A stretch of 22,314 bases of DNA from a virus, in the IMG/VR virus record IMGVR_UViG_3300031250_000222, positions 1 to 22,314 of that record. One strand, written 5' to 3'. The position numbers were made by a program, and so were the translations under genes. Positions 3,771 through 8,476 of this stretch are shown in pieces. The notes under the pieces were generated by a model that did not search any database, was not told where the DNA came from, and saw nothing but the letters and a program-made list of their open reading frames with translations. Each line of letters starts with the position of its first letter. Within the stretch, counting starts at the first letter, position 1.

Positions 3771-3798
3771 TGGTTTGCTTTGCTGCGCTGGCAATGAC
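3771..3798. repeat. Solo arm of the CATTGCGAGCGCAGC-type palindromic repeat
   Basis: This 28-bp stretch matches, with a few mismatches, the right arm of the long inverted repeats at 8430-8457 and 10353-10382 (GCTTCGCTGCGCTCGCAATG core). Only one arm is present, so it looks like a decayed or partial copy. It lies between the protease and the small terminase gene. Confidence 0.55.
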
Positions 3799-7120: not shown

Positions 7121-8476
7121 ATGACACATATCGAAATGAAATCCGCCGCCGGCGACGCCTTCGGCGACTTGCACGAGGCCTTCGAGGCCTTCAAGGAGAC
7201 CAACGACGAGCGGCTGAAGCAGCTCGAGACGCGGTTCGGCGTCGATGCGGTGACAGAGGAAAAGCTGTCGCGCATCGACACGGCGCTGGATGAAACCAGG
7301 CGCCGGCTCGATCGAATGACGCTCGACGCCGGACGGCCGCGCCGCGGCGGCGAGCCGGCGGCGCAGGAGGGCGCCGCGCGCGAACACAAATCGGCCTTCG
7401 ATCTCTATATGCGCGCCGGCGAAAGCAGCAGCCTGCGGCGGATCGAGGAAAAAGCCATGTCGGTCGGCTCGGGCGCCGACGGCGGTTATCTGGTGCCGAC
7501 GCCGGCGGAGCAGGACATTCTGCGCCGGCTCGCGAAGATCTCGCCGATCCGCAGCATCGCCAGCGTGCGCCAGATCTCGACGCATGTGCTCAAACGCGCC
7601 TTCTCGACCACAGGTCCGGCCGCCGGCTGGGTGGCGGAAGCCGATCCGCGGCCGCAGTCCAGCAATCAGCAGATCGCCGACCTCACCTTCCCGGCGATGG
7701 AGCTTTACGCCATGCCGGCGGCGACGCAGACCCTGCTCGACGACGCCGTCGTCGATATCGAGCAATGGATCGCCGAGGAAGTGCAGACGGCCTTCGCCGA
7801 ACAGGAAGGCGCGGCCTTTGTCGGCGGCGACGGCGTGAACAAACCGAAAGGCTTCCTGAGCTACCCGACCATCGCCGACGCCAGCTGGGCCTGGGGTAAT
7901 CTCGGCTTCATCACCACGGGCGCCGCCGGCGGCTTTCCGGTGACGCAGGCGTCCGATGTGCTGTTCAATCTCGTTTATGCGCTGCGCGCCGGCTTCCGGC
8001 AGAACGGCAAATTCGTGATGGGCCGCCGGGCGCAATCGATGATCCGCCAGTTCAAGACGACGACCGGCGAATATATCTGGGAGCCTCCGGCGACCGGCGG
8101 CGCCGCGGCGACGCTGATGAATTTCCCGGTCATCGAAGCCGAGGACATGCCGGACCCCGCCGCCAACTCCTTCTCGGTGGCGTTCGGCGATTTCGAGCGC
8201 GGCTATGTCGTCGTCGACCGCATCGGTATCCGCGTGCTCCGCGATCCCTATTCCGCCAAGCCCTATGTGCTGTTCTACACGACAAAGCGCGTCGGCGGCG
8301 GCGTGCAGAACTTCGAGGCGATCAAGCTGCTGAATTTTCGGCCTGATCGACGCGGCCTTTTTCGACACTGCCATCGTCATTGCGAGCGCAGCAAAGCAAT
8401 CCATCTCCAGGACAACGACGCGCACCATGGATGGACTGCTTCGCTGCGTTCGCAATGGCGCGCCTTTTCCATATGA
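7121..8476 (+). CDS. HK97-type major capsid protein (GTA gp5-like), C-terminally extended
   Basis: This 451-aa protein builds the icosahedral head. Residues 1 to about 110 form a charged, coiled-coil delta/scaffold domain that the prohead protease should remove. The HK97 fold begins around KAMSVGSGADGGYLVPT (111-127) and runs to FEAIKLLNF (398-406). GAGGA sits 5 nt before the ATG at 7121. Relatives usually stop just after a KLLKF-like end. Here the frame continues 45 residues, with Cys, His and Arg in abundance, through a dispersed palindromic repeat. Inserting one base after 8334 would give KLLKFSA and the stop TGA at 8344-8346, so a one-base deletion, or a sequencing error, explains the tail. 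The true product may be about 408 aa. Confidence 0.93.
   Translation: MTHIEMKSAAGDAFGDLHEAFEAFKETNDERLKQLETRFGVDAVTEEKLSRIDTALDETRRRLDRMTLDAGRPRRGGEPAAQEGAAREHKSAFDLYMRAGESSSLRRIEEKAMSVGSGADGGYLVPTPAEQDILRRLAKISPIRSIASVRQISTHVLKRAFSTTGPAAGWVAEADPRPQSSNQQIADLTFPAMELYAMPAATQTLLDDAVVDIEQWIAEEVQTAFAEQEGAAFVGGDGVNKPKGFLSYPTIADASWAWGNLGFITTGAAGGFPVTQASDVLFNLVYALRAGFRQNGKFVMGRRAQSMIRQFKTTTGEYIWEPPATGGAAATLMNFPVIEAEDMPDPAANSFSVAFGDFERGYVVVDRIGIRVLRDPYSAKPYVLFYTTKRVGGGVQNFEAIKLLNFRPDRRGLFRHCHRHCERSKAIHLQDNDAHHGWTASLRSQWRAFSI
8378..8457. repeat. Long inverted repeat, copy 1 (28-bp arms)
   Basis: The arms at 8378-8405 and 8430-8457 are complementary over 28 bp with about three mismatches, around a 24-nt loop. 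They share the CATTGCGAGCGCAGC core with copy 2 at 10301-10382. Such palindromes are common intergenic elements in alphaproteobacterial chromosomes. This copy lies inside the extended reading frame of the capsid gene and directly before the connector gene. Confidence 0.85.

Follow-up and report, generated by a model that had tools for sequence, protein, structure and literature searches.

The major capsid gene of a gene-transfer-agent (GTA) type cluster reads past its usual family end and through a palindromic repeat; the gene is considered to have originally stopped at TGA 8344−8346, with a REP-like palindrome lying in its 3′ untranslated region, and a small loss of sequence (net −1 modulo 3) would have exposed the repeat to translation (probability roughly 80%). 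The window, meaning the whole stretch of DNA analysed, is a 22,314-base IMG/VR record in which a mutS gene neighbours an RcGTA-type cluster of structural genes (prohead protease, terminase, portal, capsid, and g6 to g15); the cluster is of the GTA type, with a methane-oxidiser-like bacterium as host. By translation, the capsid ORF (7121−8476, 451 aa) starts at ATG 7121 and stops at TGA 8474−8476; residues 402−406 read KLLNF, 45 more codons stay open after them through the palindrome, and TGA 8344−8346 lies out of the current capsid frame. Both the lost stop and the 45 residues running through the inverted repeat had been proposed in a sequence-only reading of this DNA, and the coordinates and the palindrome are confirmed here. 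The features of the region are as follows.

7121−8338, plus strand: body of the RcGTA-type (g5) HK97-fold major capsid gene, residues 1−406 (Pfam, TIGR01554, PDB, Foldseek)
8333−8341, plus strand: codons 405−407 (AAT TTT CGG), site of the net one-base loss modulo three (K405 conservation, relatives' stops)
8339−8473, plus strand: read-through tail of 45 codons with non-coding composition, followed by the stop TGA 8474−8476 (codon log-odds, pLDDT)
8344−8346, plus strand: probable ancestral capsid stop TGA, now out of frame (GCCTGATC context like that of relatives)
8375−8460, no strand: REP-like palindromic element with an 18-bp outer stem, in the post-capsid hairpin slot (fold, motif copies, relatives' genomes)
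8479−8484, plus strand: probable Shine-Dalgarno sequence (GGAGAG) of g6, 2 nt past the new stop (read from the sequence)
8491−9057, plus strand: g6, head-tail connector (Pfam PF05135, E 6e-8; relatives' alignment)
10301−10385, no strand: second full REP copy, 82% identical to the first (E 9e-19), 24 nt past the stop of g9, the major tail gene
3771−3798, minus strand: half REP copy, 10 nt past the prohead protease stop (93% over 28 nt, E 4e-7)

The window capsid is an RcGTA-type HK97 capsid by full-length homology: Pfam Phage_capsid matches residues 121−406, NCBIfam TIGR01554 matches residues 15−406 up to the model end (385/385) and stops exactly at 406, and the RcGTA capsid Rcc01687 is matched both in sequence (PDB 6tb9, E 5e-89) and by Foldseek (6tb9, E 4e-24). 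The gene has portal on one side and g6 on the other, in a cluster with RcGTA order, and g6 aligns with its relatives from residue 1 at 49−58%. Rcc01687 (g5; 6tb9/6tsu/6tba) belongs to the same HK97-type family and the capsid-g6-g7-g8-g9 order is kept; the alignment reaches KLLKF at residue 384 of 386, and the solved capsid ends two residues later, whereas the window ORF carries 45 extra residues past KLL(N)F. The usual family end, which falls a few residues past KLLKF and is not strictly defining, is missing from the window capsid because of the frame loss; this atypical C-terminus weakens the claim that this copy yields a normal product, not the claim of family descent.

A tblastn search with capsid residues 1−406 recovered about 158 relatives, and all but three of them end with KLLKF (or a close variant) plus 1−4 residues (GVS, GTA, AAS, GTT, SA and similar) and a stop; the exceptions are a 9-residue end (L113), a different frame break near residue 385 (L104), and one sequence that looked aberrant (L081). 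The 45-residue tail is absent by tblastn from all of about 155 relatives, which rejects the possibility, allowed for in the sequence-only reading, that the relatives all share it. In a 43-sequence alignment K405 is at least 90% conserved; the non-consensus N405 of the window therefore marks the lesion, and the rest of the capsid is fully conserved. The GCCTGATC context of TGA 8344−8346 matches relatives that end ...GCC TGA TC (L030, L145, L164). The nearest capsid found has 77% identity, and genus and family searches gave none closer (g6 at most 59% identity), so we infer the ancestral end of the exact window lineage from these more distant sequences. The sequence itself shows no more than that codons 405−407 are, on balance, one base short modulo three. 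The earlier proposal of a small frame loss beside TTTT, with the old stop at 8344−8346, fits all of the comparative data; that exactly one base was lost is unproven, as the three-residue ends of near relatives are GVS, GTA, and AAS, not SA. Likewise, the restored KLLKFSA holds as a family-like end in that relatives stop 1−4 residues past KLLKF, but the SA end is found only in more distant relatives; ...FGTA* is the commoner end among near ones, and a four-base loss from a GTA end fits as well as a single-base loss from an SA end.

By its many dispersed copies, extragenic location, and palindromic fold, the palindrome belongs with REP-like elements. The 8375−8460 sequence folds with a z of −4.2, and 0/200 shuffles fold as well; its half-site motif occurs five times in the window against none expected, and the repeat is present there in three places. 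REP matches are found in 12 of 14 related genomes, with 2 to 70 in each. All 25 copies sampled are intergenic, and 24 of them lie beside at least one gene 3′ end; the sample comes from one Methylocystis genome and L027, with gene calls from a simple purpose-made codon model. Were it not for the upstream loss of the capsid frame, the window copy would not lie inside an ORF. No Rfam match was found for the palindrome, the plasmid and phage collections gave weak matches only, and a literature search for the REP consensus returned nothing relevant. Br-REP1 and Br-REP2 of Bradyrhizobium (PMC5082802) are similarly short, dispersed extragenic palindromes that are often in 3′ untranslated regions; the window consensus, however, is unlike either when compared to the sequences in that paper, and has no Rfam match. 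Rickettsia palindromic elements (RPEs; reviewed in PMC10969869) resemble the window case in that a protein ORF reads in frame through a palindromic repeat, however RPEs insert in frame and are kept coding, whereas the window repeat is normally extragenic and is ‘coding’ only via the upstream frame loss. In-frame insertions kept coding in several genes or relatives, which characterize the Rickettsia type of element, were not found for the window REP.

The repeat occupies a slot that in relatives holds a hairpin. The gap from the capsid stop to g6 is about 57−90 nt in the nearest relatives; a hairpin with a stem of at least 8 bp is present within the first 65 nt of 35 of 45 distinct capsid-g6 gaps, compared to 1.9% of shuffled gaps. 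It starts 8−37 nt past the capsid stop, mostly at 10−20 nt (4 nt in L021), and the stem sequences differ widely between lineages with complementarity kept. The 60 nt after the capsid stop have a mean fold z of −2.4 in the 44 nearest relatives, versus +0.2 for an equally long stretch within the end of the gene, against shuffles that preserve base composition only, not dinucleotides. Among the spacers of the cluster, those that follow TerL and capsid are outstanding for folding, unlike the ones that follow g6 to g9; a z of −2.1 is also seen for the 60 nt past g10, but this stretch overlaps coding sequence. The sequences compared are window 8347−8475 and the capsid-g6 gaps of L005−L026 and L085−L103. 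REP replaces the hairpin in the post-capsid slot of the window and of L027, an uncultured Methylocystaceae genome; in the latter (1300−1390) the repeat lies 12 nt past an intact capsid stop, a second case of REP in this slot. The post-capsid hairpin and the signal after TerL are candidate attenuators or mRNA 3′-end stabilisers. The Caulobacter GTA operon has an internal terminator and an anti-terminator to pass it (PMC11150451); this terGTA of Caulobacter crescentus is likewise a GC-rich inverted-repeat structure inside a GTA operon, however it lies after the operon's first gene and is made up of three repeats of 150 bp, whereas the relatives' hairpins are single and follow the capsid gene (PMC11150451).

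The read-through tail has the codon usage of an off-frame sequence, with a log-odds of −0.255 per codon versus +0.267 for the capsid body, and none of 573 windows from other genes scores as low. AlphaFold2 with the 43-sequence alignment, in a model of moderate confidence (mean pLDDT 61.9), gives the tail a pLDDT of 32−48, with residues 412−451 below 50; no homologue of the tail was found. In 56% of relatives, shifting the frame there would likewise add at least 45 residues, so the length of the tail needs no explanation. The suggestion in the sequence-only reading that the tail could affect assembly thus finds no support in composition, pLDDT, or length. The tail looks less like a new feature of the capsid than like the outcome of a small, ordinary mutation or a slip in sequencing; it probably has no function, and the base loss, if real, is probably a tolerated or damaging lesion.

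For the preferred reading, we infer an order of events in which an RcGTA-like capsid gene would have ended a few codons past KLLKF at TGA 8344−8346, as in relatives, with a dispersed REP-like palindrome 28 nt downstream of that stop in the slot where relatives have a hairpin that is short and GC-rich. Codons 405−407 would then have undergone a small deletion (net −1 modulo 3) that put the stop out of frame, and the frame would have stayed open across REP until a stop occurred by chance, 2 nt short of the ribosome-binding site of g6. That the frame is open to just before the g6 Shine-Dalgarno sequence counts against this reading, as it can be read as selected coupling; chance explains it. On such a coupling account the frame loss would be fixed in the lineage, the capsid would carry a 45-residue Arg/His/Cys-rich REP tail, and ribosomes would cross the hairpin and stop beside the g6 start, with translational coupling replacing hairpin control of the capsid:connector ratio; this is highly improbable. 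It is very unlikely, if a little less so, that the tail is really translated and retained in particles as a C-terminal extension: the 45 codons open through the repeat and the RPE precedent for palindromes within proteins (PMC10969869) would favour it, but the tail is missing from all relatives, its codon usage and pLDDT are those given above, and the repeat is extragenic at the 25 other places sampled.

A larger REP-linked deletion that took the original stop and spacer is unlikely, though less remote than a genuine tail; TGA 8344 would then be coincidental and CGGCC...GGCCTTTTT (8339−8362) would be the remnant of the old hairpin. Hairpins of relatives have a right arm (CGCGGCCTTTCTC in L010) that its GGCC arms and T run do resemble, although these lie about 30 nt nearer codon 406; against this account, GCCTGATC after codon 406 matches the relatives' own ends, and the remnant folds weakly (−6.5 kcal/mol). 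The least probable account is programmed −1 frameshifting at AAT TTT that yields both normal and long capsid; a −1 slip at TTTT would reach TGA 8344, however the site (G AAT TTT) as read from the sequence is not a canonical X XXY YYZ heptamer, and relatives encode the normal end in frame with no shift needed. A run of TTTT is also too short for ordinary transcriptional slippage.

The missing base may instead be a sequencing or assembly error, with the capsid gene of the organism normal; this is a sub-case of the preferred reading, with which its probability overlaps, and it falls somewhat short of an even chance. An exact search of viral contigs finds the junction in one record only, four Ts in a row mark the site, with an 18-bp palindrome (a strong hairpin) just downstream, and the capsid is otherwise fully conserved. 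Against an error, no other frame break is seen where window genes were compared with those of relatives (from terminase to g15, and DUF2793; mutS lies outside the compared regions), and lesions in other GTA capsid genes make decay plausible: L104 has its frame break near residue 385, and in-frame TAG codons are seen in G012 (C4:104616−105827) and G061 (C101:15970−17175). Capsid lesions (or errors) thus recur in this GTA group, and on these two grounds the balance tips slightly towards a real lesion.

Elsewhere in the cluster, the window prohead protease (3134−3760) is upstream of g1/terminase; the 14 relatives that have the cluster all carry it between portal and capsid, which suggests a rearrangement in the window lineage. 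The half REP at 3771−3798 follows the protease gene. The GTA portal ORF is extended in 6 of 14 Methylocystaceae relatives (L283−L285, L288, L294, L295; e.g. L284 16772 downward, L294 16556 downward) by a PAGxxxGGQWT-polyGly linker and then interchangeable C-terminal domains; the window portal has no such extension. The four domains scanned match CdiA_C (PF18451, E 4e-19), RNAse_A_bac (PF18431, E 1e-16), DUF6883 (PF21814, E 8e-12), and, weakly, CdiA_C_tRNase (0.005). The extensions look like interbacterial polymorphic (CDI-type) toxins fused to the GTA portal; no report of a toxin-GTA portal fusion was found in the literature searched, the nearest being MuF toxins (PMC5576092). The portal-protease gap, 1.5−6 kb long, holds displaced portal 3′-end fragments with up to 87% identity (L284, L285, L288, L290, L294, L295, L296). 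In L288, the gap that was read in detail, there are portal fragments with other C-terminal domains and small paralogous ORFs of some 120 aa. Pfam had no match for the one scanned; these ORFs resemble immunity genes, by analogy with CDI/Rhs orphan-module arrays.

The frame slip by itself is ordinary and matters little, and the comparison set is its useful by-product. Where a REP-like repeat lies next to a gene end, loss of a base creates a phantom C-terminal tail, and capsid annotations of this kind call for caution. Of more interest than the slip are the CDI-type toxin-portal fusions in relatives and the conserved post-capsid hairpin, which is a testable candidate for the excess of capsid over single-ring connector proteins.
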